DNA of 64,000 bases from the NCBI RefSeq assembly GCF_036021035.1, contig NZ_CP107930.1:496001-560000 (forward strand), read 5' to 3'. Source of the stretch: Kineococcus sp. NBC_00420. GTDB taxonomy: Bacteria; Actinomycetota; Actinomycetes; Actinomycetales; Kineococcaceae. This document shows, piece by piece, positions 249 to 15,994 of the stretch. Each line of letters starts with the position of its first letter. Position 1 is the first letter of the stretch. The translations under genes and the position numbers were made by a program. The notes below the pieces were generated by a model, which worked only from the letters and a program-made list of their open reading frames with translations, did not search any database and had not been told where the DNA came from.

Positions 249-268
249 AGCGCGACGGCCGGTCGCCG

Positions 269-1045: not shown

Positions 1046-1051
1046 CGTCAC

Positions 1052-2080: not shown

Positions 2081-2160
2081 GCGGGCACGCGCGACCGCGC
2101 ACGCCGGACGCGCGGCGTGAGATGATCCCGGGGAGATTTCCACGAGCGAAGAGGACAGGC

Positions 2161-2634
2161 ATGCCCAGCAACAGGCGCACGCAGTGCGCCAACAAGATGC
2201 CCTGGCCGGCCGGCAACCACCGCAGCCTCGAGCGCTTCCTGGACGAAGCCGAACGCGCGGGCACCCTCGACACCATCGCCGAGCACCCCGCGGCCGCGAC
2301 GGCTCTCGCGCAGCCGCCGTACAGCCTGGACGCCGCCAGTGTCGGCACCGTCCTGCGGGACGCGGACAGCCGCGAGCAGGCGGCCGCCTACGTCAACGGC
2401 TGGCACCACTGGCTGCAGGCCGTCGGTGACGACTACCCGGACACGGCCTCCTCGGTCGAGGCCTTCGCCGCCTTCACCTCGGAGATCACCTCCGAGCACT
2501 GGGACGCCCACGGCGAGGACACCTCCTTCGACGACTTCTTCATCTCCCTCGTCGACGCCGCCGTCGCCGCGAAGAAGTCCGGTACCCCGACGCGGGAAGC
2601 GCTCGACACGCTCACCGGCGCCACCTCGGACTGA
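2161..2634 (+). CDS. Hypothetical protein, acidic, 157 residues
   Basis: Not recognised. It begins at ATG 2161 behind a weak AGAGGACAGG sequence and encodes a soluble, strongly acidic, mostly alpha-helical protein rich in Ala, Asp, Ser and Thr. There is no signal peptide, membrane segment or cysteine cluster; its only Cys is near the N-terminus (TQCANKMPW). Composition and codon use match the neighbours, and a strong hairpin follows the stop. It is monocistronic between the recombinase and the convergent toxin-antitoxin pair. Confidence 0.7.
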   Translation: MPSNRRTQCANKMPWPAGNHRSLERFLDEAERAGTLDTIAEHPAAATALAQPPYSLDAASVGTVLRDADSREQAAAYVNGWHHWLQAVGDDYPDTASSVEAFAAFTSEITSEHWDAHGEDTSFDDFFISLVDAAVAAKKSGTPTREALDTLTGATSD

Positions 2635-2645
2635 CCGTCCCCGTC

Positions 2646-2669
2646 GCCGGGCCCCGTCAGGGGCCCGGC
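2646..2669. terminator. Bidirectional hairpin terminator
   Basis: GCCGGGCCCC (2646-2655), loop gtca, GGGGCCCGGC (2660-2669): a perfect 10-bp stem lying between the convergent genes ending at 2634 and 2696. There is no long T run, as usual in high-GC actinobacteria. Confidence 0.7.
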
Positions 2670-2695
2670 CGGTGCGTTTCCTCGAGGGGGAACGT

Positions 2696-3118
2696 TCAGC
2701 TCGGGGGCAACGTCTCCCGCCACGGCTCCCCGAGGGCGATCTGCCGCAGGTGGGTCGCGATGAGACCGACGTCGTCGAGCCCTTCGGCGACCGAGCGGAC
2801 GAGGCGTTGGCCGTGGTCGGCGTCCGGTCGCAACGTCTTGATCCCGTTGCGGTCCAGGGCGGCCAGCGCGACGAACAACGCGATCCCCGGGTTCAGTGCT
2901 GAGTCGAACGGCCGCGTCGTGGCGATGGCGTGCATCAGAGCGCCCGCCTGCTCGTACTCGTCGCGGTAGACGCGTTCACCGTCGACGTCGACGGCAGGCC
3001 GCGACGCAGCGGCCACCAGGGCCCCCACGTCGCGGATGCGGACGGGTTCCTCGGCGAGCCAGTCGGCGAGTTCGCTGATCTGGGCGACGGTCAGGAAGCG
3101 GGGACGCTCGGGGATCAC
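2696..3118 (-). CDS. Doc/Fic-like toxin with divergent active site
   Basis: A 140-residue protein starting at GTG 3118, whose GTGA overlaps the antitoxin stop. The layout is that of Doc-type death-on-curing toxins: FLTVAQISELADWL at the start, GALVAAASRP, YEQAGALMHAI and a C-terminal helix ending LRQIALGEPW. Active Doc proteins carry HxFxxxNKR to bind and transfer phosphate or AMP. The corresponding stretch here is TTRPFDSALNPGIALFVAL, so the His and the Lys-Arg pair are missing while Phe and Asn remain. It may be catalytically dead, or act through a different chemistry. The upstream RHH gene and translational coupling still identify a toxin-antitoxin arrangement. Confidence 0.65.
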   Translation of the reverse strand: MIPERPRFLTVAQISELADWLAEEPVRIRDVGALVAAASRPAVDVDGERVYRDEYEQAGALMHAIATTRPFDSALNPGIALFVALAALDRNGIKTLRPDADHGQRLVRSVAEGLDDVGLIATHLRQIALGEPWRETLPPS

Positions 3119-3321
3119 CGAGCGCGCAGCGCTTCCCACAGCGCGGGGTTGCTGGTGGCGATGCGTTCGGCGATCGTTGCGATCTCCTCCTCCTGCTCGC
3201 GCGTGGACTGCTCGAGCATCGATTCGAAGAGCTTCTGCCGCGAGACACCGGGGTTGCGTCGCTGGAGGTCGTCCAGCATGCGTTCGTGCTCCTCCGAGAG
3301 GCGGAGGGTCATCTGGGCCAT
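3115..3321 (-). CDS. Ribbon-helix-helix antitoxin
   Basis: Sixty-eight residues from ATG 3321. The first part (MAQMTLRLSEEHERMLDDLQ) is a typical RHH/CopG beta strand followed by an amphipathic helix, then GVSRQKLFESMLEQST as the second helix. The acidic, helical C-terminus (EQEEEIATIAERIATSNPAL) would wrap and neutralise the toxin. Such proteins dimerise, bind the operon promoter and repress it, with the toxin as co-repressor. The gene is first in a two-gene operon, overlapping the Doc-like gene by four bases. No palindromic operator was obvious in the 30 bp upstream. Confidence 0.75.
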   Translation of the reverse strand: MAQMTLRLSEEHERMLDDLQRRNPGVSRQKLFESMLEQSTREQEEEIATIAERIATSNPALWEALRAR

Positions 3322-3355
3322 GCGATCCAGGGTACCCCAGTGATGTCGCGTGATG

Positions 3356-3682
3356 TCAGGCGTTGCGGCGTTCCCGCTGGTACGTCGTCCACGCCTCGGT
3401 GCACCGCTCGCAGCGACAACCGACGTTGCGGTAGCCGTTGGCCGAACCGTGCCGCGGATCAGCGGGATCGGCCAGGAACGCCGCCTTGCGCTCCGCCGCG
3501 GAGGGGCGCGCCACGGCCACCCCCACGCCCAGGTCGGCCCGCCAGACCCGCACCGTCGGGTGACTGACGCCGAGCACCCGGCCCGCCTCCTGCTGGGAGA
3601 GGTGGGCCGTGGCCTCGACGGCCTGCTGCCAGCTGTCGTGCCCGCAGCGGCGGGCGATCTCGTCACGGTCGTAGCGGGGCAC
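3356..3682 (-). CDS. Small HTH protein with a Cys-rich C-terminus
   Basis: A 108-residue protein, taking GTG 3682 as start (an in-frame ATG at 3727 would add 15 residues of poorer quality). Residues about 28-55 read as a helix-turn-helix (HLSQQEAGRVLGVSHPTVRVW). The end, HGSANGYRNVGCRCERCTEAW, is the glycine-tyrosine/CxCxxC motif seen in many small actinobacterial and actinophage proteins, probably a one-zinc module. Exact role unknown; DNA binding is inferred. It is transcribed toward the toxin-antitoxin pair and may be part of the same mobile or phage-derived patch. Confidence 0.6.
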   Translation of the reverse strand: MPRYDRDEIARRCGHDSWQQAVEATAHLSQQEAGRVLGVSHPTVRVWRADLGVGVAVARPSAAERKAAFLADPADPRHGSANGYRNVGCRCERCTEAWTTYQRERRNA

Positions 3683-3746
3683 GGCAGCAGCGTAGGACGC
3701 GCACTCCCCCTTGACGCCGACGAACATGTTCGTCGCGATCGTGTTC

Positions 3747-4522
3747 GTGACTCGTCGACCGCTCACCATCGTGGGCGCCGGCCTCACCCTCGCCTGCGTC
3801 CTGCACGTCCACGGTGTCGACGCCCTCGTCCTCGACCTCTCCGCTGGGGCGCCAGGCTCACCGCCACCCACCCCCACCCCGACGGCGGCCACACCCTCAC
3901 CCTCGCCGACGGCACCACCACGACCACCGACCTCCTCGTCGGCGCCGACGGCGCCTGGTCGCGGGTACGGCCCCTCCTGACCCCCGCGGTCCCCGCCTAC
4001 AGCGGCATCTCCTTCGTCGAGTTCGACCTCGTCGACGCCGACGCACGCCACCATCTCGCCGCCGACACCGTCGGCCCGGGGATGCTCTTCGCCCTCGGTC
4101 AGGACCAGGGATTCCTCGCCCACCGCGAGACCGACGGCAGCCTCCACGTCTACGCCGGCCTCCGCGTCCCCGAGAACCGGACCCGGCGGCGCATCGACAC
4201 CCGCACCGCCCTCCTCACCGCCTTCGACGGCTGGGACGAGAGCCTGCTCCGCCTCGTCCACGAAGCCGACAGCGGCTTCACCCCCCGCCCCGTCCACGCC
4301 CTCCCCACCGGACTCACCTGAGACCGGGTCCCCGGGGTCACCCTCCTCGACGGCGCCGAACTCGCCCGCGCCCTGCTCGAACACCCCGACGACTCCGAGA
4401 CGGCGCTCGCGGGCTACGAGGCGGCCCGCAACCTCGACCTGATCTTCTGCGCCGACTCACCCGCGCCGCTGGTCGAGCAGTTCGCGATCCACGCCGCGAC
4501 GGCCGCCGGAGCCCGGGCGTGA
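3747..4522 (+). pseudogene. Decayed FAD-dependent monooxygenase
   Basis: Pieces of a TetX-type flavin hydroxylase lie in order but in different frames. GTG 3747 begins VTRRPLTIVGAG, the FAD-binding Rossmann start, already damaged after it (LTLACVL, the usual second glycine region shortened). At about 3840-3865 the frame shifts and some 60-80 residues are lost, resuming at ARLTATHPHPDGGHTL and the well preserved LLVGADGAWSRVRPLL. A stop at 4321-4323 follows LPTGLT, where the GDAAH motif should come. The C-terminal part continues in another frame (LLDGAELARALLEHPDD) to TGA 4522. The end overlaps the TetR gene by four bases, so the two were once an operon. Confidence 0.75.
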
Positions 4523-5184
4523 CCCCCACCCCGCTCAGCCGCCGGGAACGACCCGCGAAACCCCCGCTGAGTCGCGACGCGATCGTGGACGTCGCCCTGC
4601 GCCTGATGGACGCCGACGGCCTCGAACGGCTCACGATGCGGAAGCTGGCCGCCGCCCTCGACACCGGCCCGGCGTTGTTGTACGTCTACGTGCGCAACAC
4701 CGCCGAACTGCACGCGGCGATCCTCGACCGCCTGCTGCTGGACCTCGAACCTCCGGTGGAGGGGGACTGGCGGGAACGCCTCGTCGCGCAGTTCAGCGGC
4801 TACACCGAACTGCTCGTCCGCCACCCCGGACTGGCCCGTTCGCTGGTCGCGGTCCGTCCCACCGGTCCGCAGTTCCTCGCGTTCGTGGACCGGGCGCTCG
4901 GGGAGCTGCACCGGGGCCACGTCCCCGCACGCCAGGCGGCGTGGGGGGTGGACCTGCTGCTGCAGCTGGCCACGGCCACCGCCGCGGAGCAGGCCACCCG
5001 TCGCGACTCCCCCGACACCGACGACGCGGTCGAGCAGGACGCCGTCCGCCACCACGACGGAGACCTCGTCCACCTCGACCGGGTGGGCGAGGAACTCTTC
5101 TCCGGAACCGGGCGGGACCGTCTGCGCTGGGCGTTGCGAGCCCTGCTGCACGGCATCGTCGCCGTCACCCCCACCGGGGGGTGA
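4519..5184 (+). CDS. TetR-family regulator (TetR class C-terminal domain)
   Basis: A 221-residue regulator starting at GTG 4519, in a GTGA overlap with the dead monooxygenase. The N-terminal helix-turn-helix is clear: LSRDAIVDVALRLMDADGL, then MRKLAAALDTGPALLYVYV. The rest (ILDRLLLDLEPPVEGDW onward) resembles the drug-sensing domain of classical TetR. A TetX-like flavin enzyme beside a TetR-class repressor is a common pair for modification or efflux of aromatic compounds. Here the enzyme has decayed while the regulator is intact, so it either regulates another target or is on its way to loss. Confidence 0.85.
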   Translation: MTPTPLSRRERPAKPPLSRDAIVDVALRLMDADGLERLTMRKLAAALDTGPALLYVYVRNTAELHAAILDRLLLDLEPPVEGDWRERLVAQFSGYTELLVRHPGLARSLVAVRPTGPQFLAFVDRALGELHRGHVPARQAAWGVDLLLQLATATAAEQATRRDSPDTDDAVEQDAVRHHDGDLVHLDRVGEELFSGTGRDRLRWALRALLHGIVAVTPTGG

Positions 5185-5206
5185 GCCCGGCGCTACCGTG
5201 AGGCCC

Positions 5207-5752
5207 GTGACGACCGCGGAGATCTCAGGACTTCCCCCGGTCAGCCTGCGGGCGTGGCGGCCCGAGGAAGCTGAACGGCTCTACGACCTGTTGCGCCGCA
5301 ACGAGGTCATCCAGTGGTTCGGGGAGGCGGCGCGCGTCCCGCTGGCCGAGGTCACCCAGGCCCGCCACCGCATCGAGCAGTGGGCGCTGACCGCGCAACC
5401 CCCGCTGGGCACGCGCGCCATCGTCACCCCCGACCGCCTCGAACCCGTCGGCAGCGTCCTGCTCTTCACCGCACCGAACTCCGAGCACGGTGAGGTGGAG
5501 GTCGGCTGGTACCTCCACCCCGACGCCGTCGGCCACGGCTACGCGGCAGCGGCGGCCCTCACCGCCGTCCACGACGCCTTCGACGCGGGTCACGACGAGG
5601 TGTGGGCCCTCACCCACACCCACAACCTCCGCAGCCGTGCGACGGCCAGCCGGATCGGGATGCGCGACCTCGGCATCGTCGACGGCCTCTGGCACGACGG
5701 CCGGTCGCAACTGTTCGTGATCACGAACCCGTCGGGCCGGTTCCCGGTCTGA
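5207..5752 (+). CDS. GNAT-family N-acetyltransferase
   Basis: A 181-residue acetyltransferase of the RimJ/RimL-like group: VSLRAWRPEEAERLYDLL at the start, GSVLLFTAPN in the core strand, EVEVGWYLHPDAVGHGYAAAAA as strand 4 and the acetyl-CoA pyrophosphate loop (VGHGYA replaces Q/RxxGxG/A), and SRATASRIGM before the last strand. It transfers acetyl from acetyl-CoA to an amine; the substrate cannot be told. GTG 5207 is preferred because TACCGT at 5194-5199 sits seven bases upstream, a leaderless arrangement; GTG 5198 would lie inside that hexamer. It follows the TetR gene by a short gap. Confidence 0.85.
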   Translation: MTTAEISGLPPVSLRAWRPEEAERLYDLLRRNEVIQWFGEAARVPLAEVTQARHRIEQWALTAQPPLGTRAIVTPDRLEPVGSVLLFTAPNSEHGEVEVGWYLHPDAVGHGYAAAAALTAVHDAFDAGHDEVWALTHTHNLRSRATASRIGMRDLGIVDGLWHDGRSQLFVITNPSGRFPV

Positions 5753-5781
5753 GGAACCCGGGCTCCTCGGACCGGAGGAGG

Positions 5782-6024
5782 TCACTCCGCGACGACGGAA
5801 CGGCGGTCGCGTTCGGCGAGGACGCCGTCCCAGTCGACGCCGCAGGCCGCGGCGATGGAGCGCAGGGCGTCCAGGGCCGCGGCGTGCAGACCTCCGGCGA
5901 GACCAGCGGTGGCCTCGTCGCCGGCGCTCTCGGCCGCGGCGAGCAACTGGTCGAGGTTGCCGGTCAGGGCGGTGAAGCTGTCGGCCACGGGGGCCGGGGG
6001 CTGGGAGTGCTCGATGTCGGTCAC
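5782..6024 (-). CDS. Small hypothetical protein, 80 residues
   Basis: From GTG 6024: a short, acidic, alanine-rich protein predicted to be helical (ADSFTALTGNLDQLLAAAES, then ALDALRSIAAACGVDWDGVL). It has no membrane segment and no recognised domain. It is convergent with the acetyltransferase and lies downstream of the M20 peptidase, with 68 bp between. Codon use is typical of the region, which supports a real gene. Function unknown. Confidence 0.55.
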   Translation of the reverse strand: MTDIEHSQPPAPVADSFTALTGNLDQLLAAAESAGDEATAGLAGGLHAAALDALRSIAAACGVDWDGVLAERDRRSVVAE

Positions 6025-6092
6025 CTGCTCAGGGTGGCGGCTGGCGGCGGAGTCGGCGACCGCACCACCCCGAGCCCACCCGGACCCGGACC

Positions 6093-7433
6093 TCAGGCGT
6101 CGGCGAGGAAGCGCTGCAGCACCCGCACGCCGAACCCCAGGGCGTCCACCGGAACGCGCTCGTCGATCCCGTGGAACATGCCCGCGAAGTCCATCCCCGC
6201 CGGCAACCGCAGCGGCGCGAAACCGTAGCCGCGGATCCCCAGGTGCGAGAACGACTTGTTGTCGGTACCCCCGGACAGGCAGTACGGCAGCACCTTCGCC
6301 CCCGGGTCCTCCGCCAGCAGGGCGGCCTGCATGCGGTCCACCAACGGGGTGGCGAACTCCGTCTCCAGCGCGACGCTCTGGTTGACGACCTCGACGTCGA
6401 CGCGCTCGCCCGCGAGGTCGCGGATGACCTCCATGAGCTGTTCCTGACGTCCCGGCAGGAACCGGGTGTCGATGAGGGCGCTCGCCGTGCCCGGGATCAC
6501 GTTGTGCTTGTACCCGGCGTCCAGCGCGGTGGGGTTCGCGGTGTTCTGCAGGGTGGCCCCGACCCAGCGGGCGGTCGTGCCGAGCTTCGCGAGCAGCGCC
6601 GAGGGATCGGTCTCCTCGAACGCCACCCCGGTGATCTCGGAGACACCCTCGAGGAACTGCCGCACGGTGGCGGTGTACTCCAACGGCCAGGAGTACTCAC
6701 CGATCCGCGTCACCGCGGCGCACAACCGGGTCACGGCGTTGTCGGTGCCGACCTGCGACCCGTGGCCCGCACGACCGTGGGCGACCAGACGCAACCAGGC
6801 CAGTCCCTTCTCGGCCGTCTGCAGCAGGTAGGTGCGTTGCCCGTCGAGGTCGACGGAGAAACCCCCGACCTCGCTGACGGCCTCGGTGACCCCCTCGAAC
6901 AGTTCGGGGCGCTCGTGCACCAGCCACTCCGCACCCTGCACGCCCGCGGCCTCCTCGTCGGCGAGGAACGCGAAGACGATGTCGCGCGGGGGTTTGGTCC
7001 CCTGGCGGGCCATGTCGCGCAGGACGGCGAGCAGCATCGCGTCCATGTCCTTCATGTCGACCGCGCCACGACCCCAGAGACAGCCGTCGGCGATCTCACC
7101 GGAGAACGGGTCGACCTTCCAGTCGGCCGCCTGCGCCGGGACGACGTCGAGGTGGCCGTGCATCAGCAGCGCGCCGCGCCCGGCGGTTCCCCGCTCGTCA
7201 CCGGGCACCCGCACGACCACGTTGCCGCGCTTGGGGAACCCCTCGACGTACTCGGGCTGCAGGCCGACCTCGTGCAGGAGTTCCATGACGTGCTCGGCCG
7301 CGACGCGCTCCCCCGGACCCGAACCGTCGCCGTAGTTGGAGGTGTCGATGCGCAGGAGATCGCGACACAGGTCCACGACCTCCGCCTCGGCCGCGCCCGT
7401 CCCGTTCGTCCCGTTCGTCGTGTCCGCGCTCAC
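6093..7433 (-). CDS. M20-family dipeptidase/deacylase (ArgE/DapE-like)
   Basis: A 446-residue zinc hydrolase that removes an acyl or peptide amide bond in the cytoplasm. The di-zinc motifs are complete: HGHLDVVP (His and catalytic Asp), AVDMKD (bridging Asp), LADEEAAG (catalytic and metal Glu) and a final metal His in FHGIDERV. The lid/dimerisation domain (about 195-310) includes KGLAWLRLVAHGRAGHGS. Actinobacteria carry one long M20 of this type annotated as a dipeptidase or uncharacterised deacylase; the true substrate is unknown. GTG 7433 is chosen because TACGGT (7446-7441 on this strand) ends seven bases upstream; GTG 7442 is the alternative. Confidence 0.9.
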   Translation of the reverse strand: MSADTTNGTNGTGAAEAEVVDLCRDLLRIDTSNYGDGSGPGERVAAEHVMELLHEVGLQPEYVEGFPKRGNVVVRVPGDERGTAGRGALLMHGHLDVVPAQAADWKVDPFSGEIADGCLWGRGAVDMKDMDAMLLAVLRDMARQGTKPPRDIVFAFLADEEAAGVQGAEWLVHERPELFEGVTEAVSEVGGFSVDLDGQRTYLLQTAEKGLAWLRLVAHGRAGHGSQVGTDNAVTRLCAAVTRIGEYSWPLEYTATVRQFLEGVSEITGVAFEETDPSALLAKLGTTARWVGATLQNTANPTALDAGYKHNVIPGTASALIDTRFLPGRQEQLMEVIRDLAGERVDVEVVNQSVALETEFATPLVDRMQAALLAEDPGAKVLPYCLSGGTDNKSFSHLGIRGYGFAPLRLPAGMDFAGMFHGIDERVPVDALGFGVRVLQRFLADA

Positions 7434-7492
7434 CTGCGCCACCGTAGAGCGTGCCGCCCCCGGGAGCGCGTCTCGGGTAGCGTCCCGGTGCC

Positions 7493-8176
7493 ATGGACAG
7501 CTCCCGCGCGACCACCGACGACGGCGACTGGTCGGTGGACGCCCCGCGGGGACTGAGCGACACCGTCCACGACGCGATCCTCGAACTCCTGATGAACCGG
7601 GGCCTGGAGCCCGGCTCGGCGCTGCGGACCCAGACCCTCGCCGTCCGCCTCGGCGTCTCCGCCACCCCGGTCCGGGAGGCGCTCGCCCGCCTGGAGGGCT
7701 CGGGCCTCGTGGTCCGCAGCGCCCGCCGCGGCTACCGGGCCGCGCCGCTCCTCTCGGCGGAGGAGCTCGCCCAGCTCGTCGACGTCCGGCTGCTGGTGGA
7801 ACCCGGCAACGCCGAGCGTGCCTGCGTCCGCACCGACGACGCCTTCGTCGCCCGGCTGTGGAGCGCGGTCGAGGACCAGCGCTCCGCGCCCACCGGTCCG
7901 GGCTACGCCGGCTTCAAGCACTACCTGGAGGCCGACTGGTCCTTCCACGAGCTGGTCGCGGAGGGGACGGGCAACCCGTTCATCGTCCGGACCCTGGACT
8001 CCTTCCGCGGTTTCGTGCAGCGTCTGCACCAGGTCGAGGAACGGGTGAGCGATGCGGACGAGAGCGTCTCGGAGCACGAGGCGATCGTGCGCGCCTTCGA
8101 GCAGCGCGATCCGGCGGGCGCCGCGCAGGCCATGCGCGCGCACCTGCAGGGTGTCCTGGACCGGGCGGTCGAGTGA
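7493..8176 (+). CDS. GntR-family regulator, FCD subfamily
   Basis: A 227-residue regulator with an N-terminal winged helix (LSDTVHDAILELLMNRGLEP, LAVRLGVSATPVREALARLE) and an all-helical FCD effector domain (VDVRLLVEPGNAERACV; ADWSFHELVAEGTGNPFI; SEHEAIVRAFEQRD) whose Asp/His residues usually hold a metal and an organic-acid ligand. FCD regulators typically sense sugar acids, dicarboxylates or keto acids. It lies directly upstream of, and in the same direction as, the five-gene sugar-acid operon, with a palindrome in between, so it is the likely local repressor. TAGCGT at 7478-7483 lies nine bases before the ATG, so the leader is very short or absent. Confidence 0.9.
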   Translation: MDSSRATTDDGDWSVDAPRGLSDTVHDAILELLMNRGLEPGSALRTQTLAVRLGVSATPVREALARLEGSGLVVRSARRGYRAAPLLSAEELAQLVDVRLLVEPGNAERACVRTDDAFVARLWSAVEDQRSAPTGPGYAGFKHYLEADWSFHELVAEGTGNPFIVRTLDSFRGFVQRLHQVEERVSDADESVSEHEAIVRAFEQRDPAGAAQAMRAHLQGVLDRAVE

Positions 8177-8210
8177 ACACGCCGGGAGGCGCTCGCCTTC
8201 TGGCGTGATT

Positions 8211-8220
8211 TTCTATAGAA
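8211..8220. promoter_or_regulatory. GntR-type operator palindrome
   Basis: TTCTATAGAA at 8211-8220 is a perfect AT-rich palindrome in a GC-rich gap, flanked by GATT and TC (GATTTTCTATAGAATC, 8207-8222). It sits between the GntR gene and the operon start at 8255. FCD-GntR operators are commonly short palindromes of this form. Binding is inferred. Confidence 0.6.
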
Positions 8221-8254
8221 TCTGACTCAACGGACGACCTTTTGGAGTGACACC

Positions 8255-9271
8255 GTGAGCGACGACGCGCACACCCCGACGAGCACTCGCGTGTTCGACG
8301 GCTTCCCGGACGTGCTGACCCGCCAGAACTGGCCGATCACCGTCCCGATGATGCCGCACCCGCACGTCCTGAAGGACGGCACCACGGTGCAGGAGCAGTC
8401 CGCCGAGGAGTGGGCGCAGACGCTCGAGGTCATGACCGACGCGGGCTACACGAGCATCGACCCGACCGACACCTGGATCCGGATCGCGGACCTCTCCCCC
8501 GAGCGTCTCGACGAGTTCTCGGCCACGGTGCGTCAGGCCGGGCTGACGATCCCGGCGTTCTCGACCTCGCGTCGTTCGGTGATGGACCACGAGAAGGCCG
8601 ACGAGAACCTCGCCTACTCCCACCGCGCCATCGACGCGTGCGCCGCGATCGGCATCCCGGTCGTGAACTTCGGGTTCATGCGCGGTTTCACCCCCGACCA
8701 GGCCAAGGCCCTGTGGTTCTGGCTGCAGCCCGGCTACTCCGACGACTTCAGCGACGACGTCCGCGCCGTCGCCGTCGCGAAGATCAAGGAACTGGCCGCG
8801 CACGCCCAGAGCGTCGGCGTCCAGATCGCCCTGGAGATGTACGAGGACACCTACCTCGGCACCGCCGACGGCATGGTGCAGTTCGTCCAGGACGTGGGTT
8901 TCGACAACGTCGGCCTCAACCCGGACTTCGGCAACATCCTGCGCCTGCACCGCGAGGTGGAGCCGTGGGAGGAGATCGCCGCCAAGACGTTCCCCTACAC
9001 GAACTACTGGCACCTCAAGAACTACTACCGCGACGAGGAACCAGGCACCGGTTCCGTCCGCACCCACCCGGCTCCCCTGGAGTTCGGCACGATCAACTAC
9101 CGCAAGGCGATCACGATGGCCATCGAGGCCGGGTTCCGGGGCGCCTTCTGCGTGGAACACTACGGCGGCGACAGCATCAGCGTCGGCGCCACGAACCGCG
9201 AGTACATCCGTCGCGTCCTGCCCAGGGCGACGACCTGGAAGCAGTTCAGCAGCTCCGCCGTGAACCACTGA
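8255..9271 (+). CDS. Xylose-isomerase-like TIM-barrel enzyme (candidate 3-oxo-aldonate decarboxylase)
   Basis: A 338-residue sugar isomerase/epimerase-type TIM barrel, start GTG 8255 behind TTTGGAG. Metal-site residues typical of the fold are visible: QIALEMYEDTYLG (Glu), FDNVGLNPDFGNI (Asp), NYWHLKNYY (His), and GAFCVEHYGGDS (Glu, His). Members include hydroxypyruvate isomerase, epimerases and, as remembered, OiaC, which decarboxylates 3-oxo-isoapionate to L-erythrulose. First gene of an operon that continues with a dihydroxyacetone-kinase-like enzyme and two tetrose-phosphate-type isomerases, so a role in producing a tetrulose is attractive. An isomerase or epimerase role remains possible. 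Confidence 0.8.
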   Translation: MSDDAHTPTSTRVFDGFPDVLTRQNWPITVPMMPHPHVLKDGTTVQEQSAEEWAQTLEVMTDAGYTSIDPTDTWIRIADLSPERLDEFSATVRQAGLTIPAFSTSRRSVMDHEKADENLAYSHRAIDACAAIGIPVVNFGFMRGFTPDQAKALWFWLQPGYSDDFSDDVRAVAVAKIKELAAHAQSVGVQIALEMYEDTYLGTADGMVQFVQDVGFDNVGLNPDFGNILRLHREVEPWEEIAAKTFPYTNYWHLKNYYRDEEPGTGSVRTHPAPLEFGTINYRKAITMAIEAGFRGAFCVEHYGGDSISVGATNREYIRRVLPRATTWKQFSSSAVNH

Positions 9272-9293
9272 GCGATCGAAGGAGACCGTTCGC

Positions 9294-11003
9294 ATGACGA
9301 AGATCTTCGGGGACCCGTCCTCGTTCGTCGACGATTCCGTTGCCGGATTCGTGGACCTCTACTCCCACTTCGTGCAGCCGGTCCCGCACGGGGTGATCCG
9401 CTCCACCGCCACCCCCGACGGGAAGGTCGCCGTCATCGCCGGTGGCGGGTCCGGGCACTACCCGGCCTTCGCCGGCTACGTCGGACCGGGTCTGGCCGAC
9501 GCCGCCGTGTGCGGCAACGTCTTCGCCTCCCCCTCCACCCGCTGGGTCTACGACGTCGCCAAGGCTGCGAACCGCGGTGGCGGGGTCCTGCTGGGTTTCG
9601 GCAACTACGCCGGTGACATCCTCAACTTCGGCCTCGCCGCGGAACGCCTGCGCGCCGAGGGCATCCCCGCGGAACTGCTCGTCGTGACCGACGACGTCGC
9701 CTCCGAGGGCCAGGGCGCCAACGGGGAACGCCGGGGCATCGCCGGGGACGTCGTCGCCTTCAAGATCGCCGGTGCCGCCGCGGAGGCCGGTTACGACTTC
9801 GAGGACGTCGTGCGGGTCTCCCGTCACGTCAACGACGTCACCCGCTCGATGGGCATCGCCTTCGCCGGCTGCACCCTCCCCGGTGAGACCGAGCCGTTGT
9901 TCACCGTCACCCCGGGGAACATGGCCATCGGGCTCGGCATCCACGGTGAGCCGGGGATCTCCGAGGAGCCCATCGGTACCCCGGAGGAGATCGCGACCCT
10001 GCTCGTGGAGAAGGTCCTCGCCGGCAAGCCCGACGACGCGCCGGACTCCGGCAAGGTCGCTGTGCTGGTCAACGGCCTCGGCTCCACCAAGTACGAGGAG
10101 CTGTTCCTGCTCTACGTGCCCATCGCGAAGCAGCTGCGCGCCGCGGGCTACGAGATCGTCGCCCCCCAGGTCGGGGAACTCGTCACCAGCCTGGACATGG
10201 CGGGTTGCTCGCTCACGGTGACGTGGCTGGACGAGGAACTCGAGAAGCTGTGGACGGACCCGGCGCAGTGCCCGGCGCTGAGCGTCGGCGCGAGCATCGA
10301 GACGACCCCGGCCCCGACGTACGTCGTCCCCGAGGACGAGGTCGCCGACTACAGCGGCACTCCCGCGGCGGCGCAGGAGTCGGGGCAGAAGATCGCCGGG
10401 CTCATCGAGGCCGTGCGTGAGGTCCTCAAGGACGCGGAAGCGGAACTCGGGCGCATCGACGCCATCGCCGGTGACGGCGACCACGGCACCGGCATGGTCA
10501 ACGGCTCCGTCGCGGCCGCGCAGGCGGCCCGGACGGCGGCCGACGCCGGGGCCGGTGCCGCGTCGACGTTGTCCGCGGCGGGTGCGGCGTGGGCCGACCG
10601 CGCCGGCGGCACCTCCGGGGTGATCTGGGGCGTGCTGCTGCACGCGTTCGCCGAGAAGCTCGGCGACGAGGGCACGCCGACGCCGGAGCAGGTCTCCGAA
10701 GGCGCCACCGCGTCGGTGGAGGCCGTGATGCGCCTCGCGGGTGCCCGCGTCGGCAACAAGACGATGCTCGACTCCCAGGTCCCCTTCGCGGAGACCCTCG
10801 CCGAGCGGATCGCTGCCGGTGACGACCTGAAGACGGCCTTCACCACGGCGTCGCAGGCGGCGACCGACGCGGCCGAGGCGACGAAGCAGCTGCGGCCGCA
10901 GATCGGGCGGGCGCGGCCGTTGGCGGAGCGTTCCATCGGTCACCCCGACGCCGGTGCCGTCTCGCTCGCGCTGGTGACGCGCACCGTCGCCGAGAAGCTC
11001 TGA
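9294..11003 (+). CDS. Fused DhaK-DhaL ketose kinase (candidate erythrulose kinase)
   Basis: A 569-residue ATP-dependent kinase related to dihydroxyacetone kinase. Residues 1-330 are the DhaK half: [23 protein letters not shown], and the His that forms a hemiaminal with the ketose (H217 in GLGIHGEPG). Residues about 365-569 are the DhaL nucleotide half, with the Mg-binding Asp cluster DGDHGTGM near 394-400 and [10 protein letters not shown] single-chain DhaKL that uses ATP, not PTS phosphate, fits actinobacterial enzymes. The neighbours (RpiB-like and TIM-like isomerases) match erythrulose kinases of the tetritol and apionate pathways better than glycerol metabolism. ATG 9294 follows GAAGGAGA. 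Confidence 0.9.
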
Positions 11004-11016
11004 GGAAGGAAAGCGC

Positions 11017-11517
11017 ATGACTGATCTGCAGTGGCGTGTGGTGCTGGCCGCCGACGAGGCCGGTGTCTCCTACAAGAACGCCATCAAGGCCGACCTGCTG
11101 AAGGACCCCCGGGTCAAGGAGGTCCTCGACGTCGGCGTCGACAGCGACACGGACAAGACGGCCTACCCCCACGTCGCCGTCGCCGGGGCGCGCAAGATCG
11201 CCGCGGGTGAGGCGGATCGCGGGATCTTCGTCTGCGGGACGGGCATGGGCGTGGCGATCTCGGCGAACAAGGTCCCGGGCATCCGGGCCTCCGTCGCGCA
11301 CGACTCCTTCTCCGTGGAGCGTCTGGTGCTCTCCAACAACGCCCAGGTCCTGACCCTGGGCGAGCGCGTCATCGGCAAGGAGCTGGCGCGCCGTCTGGCG
11401 AAGGAGTTCCTGGGCTACGTCTTCGACGAGACCTCCGCCTCGGCGGAGAAGGTCGACGCCATCACCGGGTACGAGACCGCGACGGAGGGCGAGGCAGGTA
11501 CCGTCGGTTCCTGCTGA
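11017..11517 (+). CDS. RpiB-family isomerase (candidate D-erythrulose-4-phosphate isomerase)
   Basis: A 166-residue member of the RpiB/LacAB fold. Family marks are [20 protein letters not shown] (active-site loop), [20 protein letters not shown] and [12 protein letters not shown]. RpiB converts ribose-5-phosphate and ribulose-5-phosphate, but paralogues named DerI/EryI isomerise D-erythrulose-4-phosphate to D-erythrose-4-phosphate. A place between a ketose kinase and a TIM-like gene argues for the tetrose reaction. The start is ATG 11017 with GAGGAAGG upstream; 13 bp separate it from the kinase gene. Confidence 0.85.
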
Positions 11518-11546
11518 TGCCCACCTAGATCTGGAGCCCGCGCACC

Positions 11547-12344
11547 ATGACGACTCGTCCCCGCCCGCTCGTCGGGGTCAGCCTGAAGATGTACTTCTCC
11601 CTGGCCCGCACGCGCAGCTACCTCGCCGACGTCGCGACCCTCGGTCGCGACGTGGCGGGTAGCGGCGTGGACGCGTTCGTCATCCCCGACTTCCTCAACA
11701 TCACCACCGGCATCGACCTCCTGCGCGGCACGGGCATCGCCGTGGGCGCTCAGGACGCCTCGTGGGAGGACTTCGGGGCGCTGACCGGCGAGGTGTCGCC
11801 GGCGGCGCTGCGCGAGGCCGGTGCGCGGTTCGTCGAGATCGGGCACGCCGAACGCCGGCGCATGTTCGCCGAGGACGACATCGTGACCGCCCGCAAGGCG
11901 GCCGCGGCCGCCCGCAACGGGCTGGTCCCGCTGATCTGCATCGGCGAGAACGTGCGCATCGACGTCCCCGACGCCGCCCGCACCACGATCAGCCAGGTGC
12001 TGGCCGCGCTCGAGGACGTGCCCTCCGAGGCCGAGGTCGTCATCGGCTACGAACCGAACTGGGCCATCGGGCAGACCGAACCGGCCCCGCCGGAGCACGT
12101 CGTCGGGGTCACCACCCGCTTGCGCGACGCCCTCGCGCACCGTCGCGGGGTCAGCCGCATCCTCTACGGCGGCAGCGCCGGCCCTGGCATGTTCACCGAC
12201 GTCGCCGAGGGCGTGGACGGCCTGTTCCTGGGCCGCTTCGCCCACGACGTCGCCAACTTCCGGCTCGTGATCCAGGAGATCGCGGACCACCCGCTCAACG
12301 CACACCACACCGACACGGACGACGAACCGGCCGACCGCGCCTGA
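11547..12344 (+). CDS. Triose-phosphate-isomerase-like enzyme (candidate L-erythrulose-1-phosphate isomerase)
   Basis: A 265-residue TIM homologue with intact catalysis: Lys in GVSLKMYF, electrophilic His in FVEIGHAERRRMF, base Glu in VIGYEPNWAIG, and the phosphate loop ILYGGSAGPG. The usual N-K-M of housekeeping TIM is S-L-K-M here, and the sequence is divergent, so this is probably not the glycolytic enzyme. In Brucella EryH and mycobacterial LerI, TIM paralogues convert L-erythrulose-1-phosphate to D-erythrulose-4-phosphate. The partner RpiB-like gene immediately upstream would perform the next step. The C-terminal tail is acidic. Confidence 0.85.
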   Translation: MTTRPRPLVGVSLKMYFSLARTRSYLADVATLGRDVAGSGVDAFVIPDFLNITTGIDLLRGTGIAVGAQDASWEDFGALTGEVSPAALREAGARFVEIGHAERRRMFAEDDIVTARKAAAAARNGLVPLICIGENVRIDVPDAARTTISQVLAALEDVPSEAEVVIGYEPNWAIGQTEPAPPEHVVGVTTRLRDALAHRRGVSRILYGGSAGPGMFTDVAEGVDGLFLGRFAHDVANFRLVIQEIADHPLNAHHTDTDDEPADRA

Positions 12345-12401
12345 GGCGCGGGAGGTCCGGTTCACCGTCGAACCAGCCACCACCACATCAGGAGACCTCC
12401 C

Positions 12402-13379
12402 GTGCCTCTCGCACCCCGCACCGACAAGATCACCAAGGTTGCCCAGATCGGCACCGGCTACATGGGCGGCGGCATCGCCCAGTCGCTGGCGCTGGCCGGC
12501 AACGACGTGTGGCTCGCCGACGCCGACAAGGAGTCGACGCAGCGCAACTACGAGCGCCTCCTGAAGGAGTCGGAACTCTTCGAGGCCCAGGGGCTGTTCC
12601 CCGCGGGCAGCACCGACACCCTCAAGGAGAAGTTCCACCCCGCGGACTCCATCGAGGAGGCCGTCGCCGACGTCCACTTCGTCGAGGAAGCCGTCTTCGA
12701 GGACCCGCAGGTCAAGAAGGACGTCCTCTCCCGCGTGGAGAAGGCCGTCACCCCCGGCACCATCATCGGCACCAACACCTCGACCATCCCGGTGAAGGTC
12801 CTGTCCGAGGCGTTCGAGGACGCGTCGATGTTCCTCACCGTGCACTTCTCCAACCCGGCGCCGTTCATCCCGGGTGTCGAGCTCGTGATGGGTGAGGCGA
12901 CCAACCCGGCCGTCCTGCCGCTCATCGAGGACCTGCTCACCCGCGCCGGCCGCCGTGGCGCGCAGGTGAAGGACGTCCCCGGTTTCGTCCTGAACCGCCT
13001 GCAGTACGTGCTGCTGAAGGAGGCCATGTCGGTCGTCGAGGAGGGTGTCGCCACCCCCGCCGACGTCGACACGATCGTCTCCACGACCTTCGGTTTCCGG
13101 CTGCCGTTCTTCGGGCCGTTCGCGATCGCCGACATGGCCGGGCTCGACGTCTACGCCAAGGGCTTCAAGGTCCTCGAGGGCCACTTCGGCGAGCGTCTCT
13201 CCGCCCCGGCGAACCTCACCGCGCTCGTCGACGCCGGCAAGTACGGCACGAAGACCGGTTCCGGGTTCCTCGAGCTCGAACCGGAGAAGCTGGCCGCGCT
13301 GATCGACTACCGCAACAAGGCCTACCAGAAGATGGGCGAGCTCCTCGCCGAGCTCGGCCCGTCGCCGCTGGCGGAATGA
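12402..13379 (+). CDS. 3-hydroxyacyl-CoA dehydrogenase-family oxidoreductase (candidate sugar-acid dehydrogenase)
   Basis: A 325-residue NAD-dependent dehydrogenase starting at GTG 12402 after AGGAGACC. The Rossmann start is IGTGYMGGGIAQSLALAGND with an acidic strand-2 end (WLADADKE) favouring NAD. TIIGTNTSTIPV and the catalytic His in FLTVHFSNPAPFIPGVELV are family motifs, and VPGFVLNRLQYVLLKEAMSV opens the C-terminal helical domain. The family includes lambda-crystallin/L-gulonate 3-dehydrogenase, which makes a 3-keto acid from a sugar acid. Last in the sugar operon, it most likely oxidises the aldonate (apionate-like or a pentonate) before decarboxylation by the product of the first gene. 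A fatty-acid role fits the context poorly. Confidence 0.8.
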   Translation: MPLAPRTDKITKVAQIGTGYMGGGIAQSLALAGNDVWLADADKESTQRNYERLLKESELFEAQGLFPAGSTDTLKEKFHPADSIEEAVADVHFVEEAVFEDPQVKKDVLSRVEKAVTPGTIIGTNTSTIPVKVLSEAFEDASMFLTVHFSNPAPFIPGVELVMGEATNPAVLPLIEDLLTRAGRRGAQVKDVPGFVLNRLQYVLLKEAMSVVEEGVATPADVDTIVSTTFGFRLPFFGPFAIADMAGLDVYAKGFKVLEGHFGERLSAPANLTALVDAGKYGTKTGSGFLELEPEKLAALIDYRNKAYQKMGELLAELGPSPLAE

Positions 13380-13443
13380 GTTCCTGACCGCTCCGAACTC
13401 GCCTCGGTTCGCCGGGGCGGGTTCGACGGCACCCGCGAGACCT

Positions 13444-13480
13444 GAGTGGGGCGTGGACCTTCCGTGTCCACGCCCCACTC
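13444..13480. terminator. Terminator of the sugar-acid operon
   Basis: GAGTGGGGCGTGGAC (13444-13458), 7-nt loop, GTCCACGCCCCACTC (13466-13480): a perfect 15-bp stem starting 65 bp after the last gene of the operon. Confidence 0.8.
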
Positions 13481-13556
13481 GTCCTCGGCCTCCGGGCCAT
13501 CGCCCAGGTGCCCTGCCCCACCCTCCTCAGCCGACGCGGGGCGACGACGGTACGCC

Positions 13557-13943
13557 GTGTCCACGGCGCGCATCGTGAACGCGGCGATCGAGGTCCTGGA
13601 CGCCGGTGGCGTGGACGCGTTGTCGAGACGGAACTCGACGCGCTGGGTACCCGAACCCTTCCAGTTCGACGCCGCACCGCTGCTCGTGCACGACGTCGTC
13701 GGTGTCGCGAGTCAGCCCGACGCCGCGACGAGGCTCCCCGGCGCTCAGCCCGGACGACGGTTCGACCGGTCGACGTTCCTGAGCGACGCGACGTCGGCCC
13801 TCACCGAGGAGGTCGACGCCGCGGGCCTGCCCTTCCTGACCCGCGTCGCCGATCGGTTGCGCAACCACGACGACCGCGAGCAGTTCCGTGCCGGCGTGGA
13901 GATCATCCTGGACGGCCTGTCGCTCCTGCCGAGGGGCACCTGA
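13557..13943 (+). pseudogene. Degenerate TetR-family regulator
   Basis: From GTG 13557 the first helix of a TetR DNA-binding domain is recognisable (STARIVNAAIEVLDAGGVDA), but the expected helix-turn-helix that should follow is missing. Instead an unrelated-looking stretch (TRWVPEPFQFDAAPLL) leads to DRSTFLSDATSALTEEVDAA and a plausible C-terminal helix region (FRAGVEIILDGLSLLP) ending at 13943. This is best explained by an internal deletion with frame changes. It follows the operon terminator and has no clear promoter. Confidence 0.55.
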
Positions 13944-13967
13944 ACCCCGGCCTCTCGTCGGCGCAGG

Positions 13968-14405
13968 TCAGTCGAGACAGAACTCGTTCCCTTCGGGGTC
14001 GGCGAGCACCAGGTGCCCGGCTCCGAGGGGTGGGGCGGGTTCGAGACGGGCGACCCGGTGCGCGCCGAGGCCGACGAGGCGGTCGGCCTCGCGCTCCAAC
14101 GCCGCCATCCGTTCCGGTCCGGTGAGTCCGGGGGCGGCACGGACGTCCAGGTGCAGCCGGTTCTTGACCCGCTTCTCCTCGGGGACCCGTTGGAAGAACA
14201 CCCGCGGTCCGGATCCGGACGGGTCCACGACGGCCGAGGCGTCGTCGCGCTGCTCCTCGGGCACTTGCCAGGCGTCGAGCGCCGCGGCCCAGGTGTCGAA
14301 ACCCGGTGGCGGCCCCTGGACCCGGTAGCCGAGGGCTTCCGCCCAGAACCCGGCGAGGCGGGCCGGGTCGGCGCAGTCGATCGTGATCTGCAGTTCCCGC
14401 ACCAC
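13968..14405 (-). CDS. VOC/glyoxalase-fold protein
   Basis: A 145-residue vicinal-oxygen-chelate fold protein of the glyoxalase-like class: LQITIDCADPARLAGFWAEA at the start, RVFFQRVPEEKRVKNRLHLD in the middle and HLVLADPEGNEFCLD at the end. The two beta-alpha-beta-beta-beta units are each represented. Metal-ligand candidates are the His in RLHLDV and the Glu in GNEFCLD. The reaction is unknown; such proteins often handle antibiotics or small oxidised molecules. GTG 14405 begins one base after the stop of the DinB gene, so the two are cotranscribed. Confidence 0.8.
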   Translation of the reverse strand: MVRELQITIDCADPARLAGFWAEALGYRVQGPPPGFDTWAAALDAWQVPEEQRDDASAVVDPSGSGPRVFFQRVPEEKRVKNRLHLDVRAAPGLTGPERMAALEREADRLVGLGAHRVARLEPAPPLGAGHLVLADPEGNEFCLD

Positions 14406-14406
14406 G

Positions 14407-14970
14407 TCAGACCTCCTTCGTGCGGAACAGGTCGCGCAGCAGCGACACCTCGGCCAGGTGGTGGATGAGTTCGCGGTGGATGTGCAGGACGAGGGCCGCC
14501 CTCGGGGTGTCGGCGTACCCCTCTTCCGCGGGTCCGCAGGGTTCGAGCAGGGCGTCCTCGCCCCACGACTCCATCCCGGCGAGCCAGGTCGCGTACTCGG
14601 TGTCGAGTTGGCGCAGGGCGGTCGCGGCGTCCGGAGCGTAGTCGAAGGTGAAGTAGTCGGTGGCCGCCCGGCCGAAGTGCACGGCGTTCCTGAGGGCCAG
14701 GCAGCCGACGATCACGTGTCCGAGCCGCCAGGCGATGGTCGTCAGGGGCGGGGGACTCGGTTCGGGGTACGCGAAGTCGATCGTCATCGCCCCCGACCCA
14801 CCCTGCACGGGTGCGGTGCTGCTCCCCCGGGGACGGACGTTCCAGCTGCCTGGGGACGGTTCCCAGAAGTACTCCTCGTCGGTGAGCCCGTCGAGTCCCC
14901 TCCGCACCTGGTGCTCCCAGTGCCGGTCCATCTGATCCCGCAGGAGTCGGTTCCAGCTGTGATCGCTCAT
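14407..14970 (-). CDS. DinB-superfamily protein
   Basis: A 187-residue four-helix-bundle protein: MSDHSWNRLLRDQMDRHWEH at the start, RRGLDGLTDEEYFWEPSP, a central helix with AWRLGHVIVGCLALRNAVHF, and the C-terminal ALVLHIHRELIHHLAEVSLL. The His residues in GHVIVG and HRELIHH are the usual metal ligands of DinB/YfiT-like proteins, some of which are thiol transferases (mycothiol-dependent in actinobacteria). ATG 14970 begins the operon with the VOC gene. It is divergent from the WYL regulator with a shared palindrome between, so probably controlled by it. Confidence 0.8.
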   Translation of the reverse strand: MSDHSWNRLLRDQMDRHWEHQVRRGLDGLTDEEYFWEPSPGSWNVRPRGSSTAPVQGGSGAMTIDFAYPEPSPPPLTTIAWRLGHVIVGCLALRNAVHFGRAATDYFTFDYAPDAATALRQLDTEYATWLAGMESWGEDALLEPCGPAEEGYADTPRAALVLHIHRELIHHLAEVSLLRDLFRTKEV

Positions 14971-15020
14971 GGCACCACCGTGACGCCGATCGCGGACAGG
15001 ATCGGTCCGCGATCGGTGCC
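14971..15020. promoter_or_regulatory. Nested palindrome between DinB and WYL genes
   Basis: CCGATCGCGGAC (14986-14997) is mirrored by GTCCGCGATCGG (15005-15016) around a 7-bp centre, a 12-bp perfect inverted repeat. An outer pair GGCACC (14971-14976)/GGTGCC (15015-15020) overlaps it. The element fills the 61-bp gap between divergent starts at 14970 and 15032 and is the obvious operator for the WYL regulator. Confidence 0.65.
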
Positions 15021-15031
15021 AGGATCGCGGG

Positions 15032-15994
15032 ATGGGCGGGGAAGGGACCACCGAGCGCGTGCTCCGGATGCTCGGCCTGCTCCAACGGCGGAGGTCCTGG
15101 ACGGCGGCCGAGCTGGCCGCGGAGCTCGGGGTGACCGAACGCTCGATCCGTCGCGACGCCGAGCGGCTGCGTTCCCTGGGCTACCCCGTGCGGGCGACCT
15201 CCGGCGTGGGTGGCGGGTACCGGCTCGGCGCCGGCGCGCGGATGCCGCCGTTGCTCCTCGACGACGAGGAGGCGATCGCCACCGCCGTCTCGTTGCGCCT
15301 GGCCAGCGGCGGAACCGTCAGCGGGGCGGCCGAGGCGGCCCTGCGGGCGCTGGCCAAGCTCGACCAGGTCATGCCACCCCGGCTGCGCGAACAGGTCCGC
15401 GTCGTGCACGCCGCCACCGACACCCTGGTCCCGGACGGGGTGACGATCGACGCGGACGTCCTCGTCACCTTCGCCCGCGCCTGCCGCGACCTGCTCCGGG
15501 TCCGCTTCCACTACCCCGCCCGCGAAGGGGGCGAGAGCGAGCGGACGGTGGAACCGGTGCGGATGGTCACGACCGGTCGGCGGTGGTACCTCATGGCCTT
15601 CGACGTCGACCGCGACGACTGGCGCACGTTCCGGCTGGACCGCATGCGCGACGTCCGCGCGACGACGTGGCGGTTCCGCCCGCGGCAGCACCCGGACCCG
15701 GTGGAGCACGTCCAGCGCTCCGTCACCACGGTCCCCTACCGCTGGCTCGTCCGGGTCCGCCTGCACGCCCCGGCCCGGACGGTCCGCGAACTCGTCCCTC
15801 CGACGATCGGCCTCGTGCACGACGAGGGGCCCCACTGCGTCCTCGAGGTCGGCGGCGACGACCTCGACTGGATCGCCGCCCACATCGCCCGGCTCAGGAT
15901 CCCCGCCGAGGTCCTGGAACCGCCGGAACTGCGGGAGGCCGCCACCCGGCTGGCCCGCACCCTGCGGGACCTGGGCACCGCCGGGGCAGGGTAG
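15032..15994 (+). CDS. WYL-domain transcriptional regulator (YafY-like)
   Basis: A 320-residue regulator. Residues about 5-60 are a DeoR/HTH_11 winged helix (LQRRRSWTAAELAAELGV, RSIRRDAERLRSLGY), followed by GVGGGYRLG. The WYL domain at about 140-210 contains the Sm-like core ending GRRWYLMAFDVDRDDWRTFR, with WYL and the Arg residues that bind nucleotides or nucleic-acid-like ligands. A WCX extension follows. Members respond to DNA damage or small ligands. Divergent from the DinB-VOC operon, which is its likely target. CAGGAT at 15020-15025 lies six bases before the ATG, suggesting a leaderless message that begins next to the operator. Confidence 0.9.
   Translation: MGGEGTTERVLRMLGLLQRRRSWTAAELAAELGVTERSIRRDAERLRSLGYPVRATSGVGGGYRLGAGARMPPLLLDDEEAIATAVSLRLASGGTVSGAAEAALRALAKLDQVMPPRLREQVRVVHAATDTLVPDGVTIDADVLVTFARACRDLLRVRFHYPAREGGESERTVEPVRMVTTGRRWYLMAFDVDRDDWRTFRLDRMRDVRATTWRFRPRQHPDPVEHVQRSVTTVPYRWLVRVRLHAPARTVRELVPPTIGLVHDEGPHCVLEVGGDDLDWIAAHIARLRIPAEVLEPPELREAATRLARTLRDLGTAGAG

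Follow-up and report, generated by a model that had tools for sequence, protein, structure and literature searches.

A stretch of 64,000 nucleotides from Kineococcus sp. NBC_00420 (G000:C1:496001-560000, hereafter the window, from a genome of 5.43 Mb in a single contig) carries six consecutive genes on the + strand that may form a catabolic operon leading from a C5 sugar acid through L-erythrulose to erythrose 4-phosphate (E4P), a reading to which we give a probability of roughly 0.55. In the proposed pathway, an oxidoreductase of the 3-hydroxyacyl-CoA-dehydrogenase fold (HCDH) would oxidize the C3 hydroxyl of the acid with NAD+, and a metal-dependent, xylose-isomerase-like TIM barrel (BAR) would decarboxylate the resulting 3-oxo acid to L-erythrulose. 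A fused DhaK-DhaL kinase would then yield L-erythrulose 1-phosphate, a TIM-like enzyme D-erythrulose 4-phosphate and an RpiB-like enzyme D-erythrose 4-phosphate, which would enter the pentose phosphate pathway, and a GntR regulator is predicted to bind a single operator before the BAR gene. From the sequences, we infer the kinase and isomerase reactions strongly and the two entry reactions moderately. If true, the reading assigns a function to a large family of barrels whose solved structure (PDB 5tnv) is functionally unnamed, and it places next to the dehydratase and phosphorylating routes a further one, by decarboxylation, that leads from C5 sugar acids to a tetrose phosphate.

The six genes are separated by gaps of 13-78 bp, and each of their products reaches its Pfam cut-off. 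A first-pass annotation, made from the letters of the sequence, had described these genes with a palindrome in front and a hairpin behind, and open reading frames, Pfam and sequence searches place all of them where it had put them. The order regulator, BAR, kinase, RpiB, TIM, HCDH is conserved in L024 and L026-L029; L025 is truncated at a contig edge.

The Erythrulose Module

The half of the pathway from L-erythrulose to E4P represents a known kind of module. LerK is an L-erythrulose 1-kinase, and LerI and DerI convert L-erythrulose 1-phosphate to E4P (PMC10733421). The corresponding candidates in the window are the Dak1-Dak2 kinase of LerK type (9294-11003, +; Dak1 3.2e-112, Dak2 8.1e-46), the RpiB-like isomerase of DerI type (11017-11517, +; TIGR02133, 186 > 168) and the TIM-like isomerase of LerI type (11547-12344, +; 170 bits). 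The genome holds four RpiB-like genes in all, a second Dak1 gene and two TIMs, the one outside the window scoring better (302 bits vs 170). The second Dak1 gene (L112:6642-9721) adjoins what appears by eye to be an aldehyde-dehydrogenase-like gene.

In trees, all three products fall with their counterparts from actinobacterial clusters in which a PGDH_C-domain protein is combined with a second barrel, BAR2; such clusters are here called apionate-type. The window TIM lies in the 18-row side of its tree that holds the TIMs of these clusters (98/98), the RpiB in a 31-row group with their RpiBs (92/99, not starred, the RpiB bootstrap being not settled), and the kinase with their kinases and apart from the genome's other Dak1, in a tree whose outgroup is a single long branch. 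L173 and L176, two clusters from Pseudomonadota, have RpiBs that are not part of the window RpiB group. Outgroups L104, L109 and L111 are long branches, so that rooting is loose; rows were dropped for length in the RpiB (L106) and kinase (L176 and L168) trees, and the TIM tree was built without the TIMs of L173 and L176, which the codon model did not pick. Genes in the fetched GC-rich loci were placed by homology and codon models, and the second TIM of G514, in L182, was not placed. Because kinase, RpiB and TIM group with apionate-type clusters and apart from the other copies, this half of the predicted pathway appears well supported, and the annotation's assignment of a LerK/LerI/DerI-type trio is supported, with the RpiB as a candidate DerI.

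The cluster TIMs also share a substitution. At the position of Asn in the motif GNWKM, for which the other TIM of the window genome is the reference, 29 of 32 cluster TIMs have Ser, as the window TIM does; of the other three, that of L130 has Gly and two are incomplete sequences. The TIMs of BAR clusters belong to two lineages, one common to actinobacterial apionate-type clusters and one shared with rhizobial TIMs in the EryH position and with two clusters of the type that contains RuBisCO-like proteins. The housekeeping TIM attaches between the two, which therefore need not form one clade.

Apionate-type Clusters and the Entry Half

PGDH_C (PF16896) is taken here to be a probable ApnO on grounds of gene context, and BAR2 is on the same footing presumed to be the OiaC-type barrel; NCBIfam models named ApnO or OiaC gave no match at the limits used. 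RuBisCO-like proteins are encoded in L168 (11175-12428), where a sugar-type binding protein was also confirmed, and in L163 (4950-6203), in both cases no more than about 3 kb from PGDH_C. The RuBisCO-like proteins of the D-apiose pathway act on 3-oxo-isoapionate 4-phosphate (PMC6302742), and a D-apiose cluster has been described by enzyme names only (PMC11747546). It is because such neighbors fit the D-apiose pathway that PGDH_C is equated with ApnO, and the match of PGDH_C proteins to the KARI domain, which HCDH lacks, is in keeping with an enzyme that catalyzes the shift of a carbon group.

PGDH_C, BAR2, kinase, TIM and RpiB occur together in six loci (L165, L173, L176, L184, L185, and L186), which is why BAR2 can be placed in the decarboxylase (OiaC) position. 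Among 17 PGDH_C stretches from genomes outside the order, three contain BAR2, kinase, TIM and RpiB (L165, L173, and L176) and 14 have no BAR2, RuBisCO-like proteins having been scanned for in two of these 14. In L168 and L172, PGDH_C, TIM and RpiB are found with no DhaKL between them, although L168 has a DhaKL-like fragment at its distant end; in this arrangement, the product would already carry a phosphate, as in the phosphorylated branch of apiose catabolism.

The window genome has an apionate-type pair of its own, in a second cluster (L113, G000:C1:2277000-2294000) where BAR2, an MFS transporter, PGDH_C, RpiB and an FGGY kinase are encoded at 6504-12027 and where tblastn detected neither DhaKL nor TIM. 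The window RpiB has a 96% identical copy there, beside the ApnO candidate. With no more than two TIMs in the genome, this second cluster probably draws its LerI from the window operon. The window cluster itself has no PGDH_C, its dehydrogenase being of the 3HCDH family. Across genomes, a PGDH_C match is present in 20 of the 47 that hold both BAR and HCDH (the window genome included) and absent from 27. Because the ApnO/OiaC-type pair lies elsewhere in the genome and these 27 genomes lack PGDH_C, the entry half in the window is read, on the strength of gene content, as not the apionate route. The first-pass annotation had suggested that the starting acid may differ from apionate, which is probable; its statement that the same five activities are encoded here is not borne out, because the ApnO- and OiaC-type proteins sit at L113 and BAR is only distantly related to the OiaC type.

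The Barrel and the Dehydrogenase

BAR (8255-9271, +) is an AP_endonuc_2 barrel (PF01261, 5.4e-32) and belongs to the family of PDB 5tnv, to which it gives a match at 8.8e-93 and, in a profile search, 305 aligned positions, and which is listed as an AP endonuclease family 2 protein, a name without a function. It aligns with BAR2 (hhalign 98.1%, 9e-14, 216 columns), the two being separate and distantly related families. Because BAR2 fills the decarboxylase place, BAR is proposed to be a putative 3-oxo-acid decarboxylase. EryC was considered as the identity of BAR and ruled out, since four barrels in the EryC position do not align with it (2.9%, 0.015).

HCDH (12402-13379, +) carries the 3HCDH_N domain (5.1e-41) and, unlike PGDH_C, gives no KARI match; the annotation's view that the dehydrogenase has the 3HCDH fold and is not ApnO is supported. 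Ser127, His148, Glu160 and Asn198 are invariant in 14 of 14 HCDH sequences, so that a His-Glu dyad with Ser and Asn, as in the 3HCDH superfamily, is present. The best solved sequence relative is 4om8, a pyridine carboxylate dehydrogenase and thus by name an enzyme of a free acid; a fold search did not separate CoA and free-acid enzymes. HCDH is proposed as a putative sugar-acid 3-dehydrogenase. In one draft genome of the genus, three HCDH copies of equal score and identity (G120:C28, C33, C59) are perhaps an assembly artefact.

The two entry genes keep company across the order. Among 198 sampled genomes, 47 contain BAR and HCDH, eight BAR only, one HCDH only and 142 neither (Fisher 6e-36, kinship of the genomes not being corrected for), BAR having been counted in the 55 strong of 60 matching genomes, after the weak matches in G021, G049, G060, G070, and G193 were dropped. 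The two genes lie at most 5 kb apart in 42 of the 47 genomes, 5-10 kb apart in one, and farther or on other contigs in four. Several BAR-only genomes offer another dehydrogenase: LtnD-like in G025 and G137, PdxA in G155 and both in G100. In G022 and G181, none of the four dehydrogenase families described below gave a full-length match beside the barrel; of the remaining two, G032 is a draft assembly (1060 contigs) and the locus of G042 lay outside the fetched set. Within the genus, 11 of 11 sampled genomes have BAR and 10 of 11 HCDH, the exception being the draft G032, and five of the 11 have BAR without PGDH_C.

BAR-HCDH runs opposite to kinase-RpiB-TIM in L142, L143, L146, and L147, and the last three hold a PGDH_C-BAR2 pair in the same stretch, so that one erythrulose module apparently serves two entries there. 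In these three loci, a GntP gene, a gene for a DUF1537-type kinase and an LtnD-like gene follow, the kinase domains having been scanned in L147. BAR-HCDH is a widespread pair whose predicted chemistry is C3 oxidation followed by decarboxylation; no account of an entry to erythrulose by this barrel with a 3HCDH, PdxA or LtnD enzyme was found in searches of an open-licence library. A short-chain dehydrogenase with a length of about 255 residues, possibly for a sugar oxidation step, recurs near BAR-HCDH in L118, L124, L132, L137, L138, L145-L147, and L150 (scanned in L137, otherwise recognized by similarity or by eye).

Exchange of Dehydrogenases and the Nature of the Acid

Four unrelated dehydrogenase families pair with BAR in the fetched loci: 3HCDH, PdxA, LtnD-like and DenD-like. 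Of 120 surveyed loci, 115 had a usable barrel, in a sample weighted to rhizobia in which some genomes appear twice and rows are not independent. At least one of the four families is present in the locus for 104 of the 115 barrels and none for 11, the partners being PdxA (48), HCDH (31), DenD with HCDH (8), LtnD-like (6), DenD-like (6), HCDH with LtnD (4) and LtnD with PdxA (1). On a barrel tree thinned to 38 rows, the partner labels need 16 changes (minimum 6), against a mean of 20.4 for shuffled labels, so partners appear to have been swapped repeatedly, on a tree that is weakly supported. Other BAR loci have TctA, GntP or MFS transporters nearby, and these transporters, together with the four dehydrogenase families, speak for an acid as the substrate class.

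Genes for enzymes of plant polysaccharides adjoin some of the clusters and are listed here case by case. GH51-type and GH3 genes stand in line with BAR in L128 (3624-11458), a GH3 gene is found in L125 (7807-11209), a GH51-type gene behind HCDH in L126 and a GH127 gene in L067 (5992-8954); in L067, L128, and L125, the glycosidase genes overlap or directly precede BAR-type genes. L122 has GH43 on the opposite strand, L137 has GH39, an aldo-keto reductase and an SDR upstream, and L131 has an aldo-keto reductase and an amidohydrolase, the latter possibly a lactonase. The glycosidase genes of L067, L128, and L125 point to a plant-derived source of pentose. L-arabinose itself, suggested by the GH51-type, GH127 and GH43 genes, was weakened as a candidate substrate by the presence of L-arabinose isomerase in most of the genomes tested for it.

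Chirality of the Erythrulose

The distribution of TIM genes may indicate which erythrulose a cluster produces. Nine genomes have BAR clusters with RpiB and without TIM. Seven of them have a single TIM (G133, G167, G137, G022, G209, G510, and G512) and in the other two, G511 and G513, the second TIM lies inside a separate, complete apionate-type cluster, so that 9 of 9 lack a second TIM outside such a cluster. Twenty other genomes examined hold two or three TIMs each, including four rhizobia whose BAR cluster is TIM-less; in three of these rhizobia and in one acetic acid bacterium, the second TIM is in an erythritol-type operon (L179-L181 and L183, where FGGY, GlpD-like and EryC-like genes were recognized by eye). 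If RpiB-only BAR clusters lead to D-erythrulose and TIM-containing ones to L-erythrulose, a rule drawn from the same loci in which its counts were made, the window acid would be L-configured at C4 (an L-pentonate) or branched like isoapionate, because carbon 4 would keep its configuration and the product would be L-erythrulose. Should the rule be true, the presence or absence of LerI would be a genomic guide to the stereochemistry of the intermediate and would narrow the substrate.

A wider proposal, which we hold tentatively and at rather less than even odds, is that of a widespread entry module to tetrulose metabolism, in which a single barrel family removes CO2 from 3-oxo C5 acids to leave L- or D-erythrulose, with at least four unrelated dehydrogenase families swapped in for different acids and the presence of a LerI-type TIM reporting the enantiomer; the Kineococcus operon would then be an L-pentonate 3-dehydrogenase/decarboxylase route to E4P.

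Weighing the Alternatives

Several observations weigh against a C5 acid route to L-erythrulose. No transporter adjoins the window operon, and the genes adjoining several actinobacterial BAR clusters (L067, L126, L128, L131, and L135-L139) are, mostly by eye, for sugar-type ABC and not for acid transporters. L-arabinose isomerase is encoded in 11 of 12 genomes, several of them with glycosidase-linked BAR clusters, and because of it those clusters need not serve L-arabinose; the window genome is the exception without it. The window RpiB scores below the NCBIfam cut-off for D-erythrulose-4-phosphate isomerase (NF051858, DerI; 150 < 240), as does that of L184 (139.8 < 240), and passes the ribose-5-phosphate isomerase model. 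No RpiB is present in L030-L033, and in L123, L127, L129, L148, and L149, BAR-HCDH stands without kinase, RpiB or TIM in 16-17 kb. In the fold search with the HCDH model, CoA dehydrogenases come out ahead of 4om8 (rank 39), the BAR profile also matches psicose 3-epimerase and UlaE, and the His of the BAR motif WHxKNY is replaced by Gln in L135 and L138. In acetic acid bacteria, the DenD-like protein of L038 passes the NCBIfam D-erythronate (C4) dehydrogenase cut-off (365 > 325). Also counting against a C5 acid, an erythritol-type operon adjoins the HCDH/LysR end of the DenD-BAR cluster in L183 (Tanticharoenia, G199; 240-15395), with FGGY kinases, a GlpD-like protein, an EryC-like barrel, TIM and an ABC transporter, mostly recognized by eye.

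The acid might be a C4 tetronate, threonate or erythronate, oxidized and decarboxylated to dihydroxyacetone for a true dihydroxyacetone kinase. The L038 score fits this, as do the other LtnD-like and DenD-like partners of BAR, whose families are named for tetronate enzymes (the LtnD-like protein of L034 is below the L-threonate dehydrogenase cut-off, 223 < 350), the DUF1537-type kinase and LtnD-like genes near BAR-HCDH in L147, and the rhizobial clusters, most of which have BAR and kinase without RpiB or TIM (L095 has both); it is in acetic acid bacteria that a tetronate is hardest to dismiss. For the window we consider it unlikely, as it leaves unexplained the RpiB-like gene and a second TIM of LerI/EryH type, in a genome where another TIM and a further Dak1 gene are encoded outside the operon, and the four rhizobia with TIM-less BAR clusters hold their second TIM elsewhere. 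BAR might instead epimerize or isomerize erythrulose or its phosphate, in the manner of EryC, or a 2-oxo acid, with HCDH a polyol or other dehydrogenase. Its epimerase and UlaE matches suggest as much, and EryC of the erythritol route is a barrel as well; the failure of EryC-position proteins to align with BAR, together with the acid transporters and hydroxy-acid-family dehydrogenases near BAR, makes this improbable.

The operon could also belong to the D-apionate pathway proper, where HCDH and BAR would stand in for the non-orthologous ApnO and OiaC, given the same trio, the relationship of BAR to the OiaC-type barrel and the genus genomes with BAR and no PGDH_C. This is decidedly improbable: 20 of the 47 BAR-HCDH genomes have PGDH_C as well, and a 3HCDH enzyme would be required to shift a hydroxymethyl group; the KARI match lies in PGDH_C and not in HCDH. 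That HCDH is a CoA-dependent enzyme of beta-oxidation co-located by chance is favored by the fold ranking, and is very improbable in view of its occurrence alongside BAR in 47 of 198 genomes and of an operon whose other genes belong to no beta-oxidation family.

Regulator and Flanking Features

The GntR regulator of the FCD subfamily (7493-8176, +; FCD 4.5e-27, GntR 1.9e-14) is encoded directly 5′ of BAR in the Kineococcus loci. Between the two genes lies the palindrome TTCTATAGAA (8211-8220), which is its own reverse complement and occurs once in the window. When the window was aligned with the upstream regions of L002-L011 (same genus) and L012 (from a different genus within the family), 12 of 12 sequences were identical across all 12 columns of ATTTTCTATAGA, against an agreement of only 4-10 of 12 in columns more than five bases away, for which reason the palindrome is considered more than chance. 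The probable operator GATTTTCTATAGAATC (8207-8222), a 16-mer around ATTTTCTATAGA, has one copy in the whole genome (5.43 Mb) even when as many as three mismatches are allowed. The annotation's local GntR gene with one operator-like site is supported, and the simplest reading is that the protein would regulate the window operon alone. A search for further operators as a route to the missing transporter was a dead end, GATTTTCTATAGAATC being single-copy.

A hairpin behind the operon (13444-13480; perfect 15-bp stem, 7-nt loop) is a probable terminator. It is the sole perfect 15-bp hairpin with a loop of 3-10 nt in the 64 kb, and the 55-nt stretch around it reaches -38.3 kcal/mol; no T run was found 3′ of it. 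Elsewhere in the window, urease-like genes lie behind an NCS1-type permease (20540-26535, by eye from translated starts), and L118 has a permease resembling it, also recognized by eye, upstream of its BAR cluster at a distance of about 6 kb.

Comparison with Known Pathways

The D-apionate pathway (ApnO-OiaC-LerK-LerI-DerI), reportedly described by Carter in 2018, shares with the window the kinase, TIM-like and RpiB-like trio, which groups with the trios of such clusters, and a barrel of the same superfamily. It differs in its PGDH_C/KARI-like ApnO, in place of which the window has a 3HCDH-fold enzyme, in a barrel that is only distantly related and in that the apionate-type pair is located elsewhere in the window genome. 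The erythritol route EryA-B-C-H-I of rhizobia and relatives, said to have been worked out by Barbier in 2014, likewise has a TIM-like (EryH) and an RpiB-like (EryI) enzyme, and some BAR clusters use the EryH lineage; its FGGY kinase and GlpD-like dehydrogenase, on the other hand, are not in the operon, and BAR is not EryC-like. The tetronate pathways (LtnD/DenD-OtnI-OtnK-OtnC and DtnK-PdxA2) have dehydrogenases related to the BAR partners of other bacteria, but they employ a DUF1537 kinase where the window operon has DhaKL; RpiB and TIM are present in the operon. The tetritol pathway EltD-LerK-LerI-DerI reportedly comes from mycobacteria, in work attributed to Huang in 2015. It resembles the window in having a kinase for L-erythrulose and a pair of isomerases on the way to E4P (PMC10733421). 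It starts from a polyol dehydrogenase, whereas the window operon has an acid-type entry with a candidate decarboxylase.

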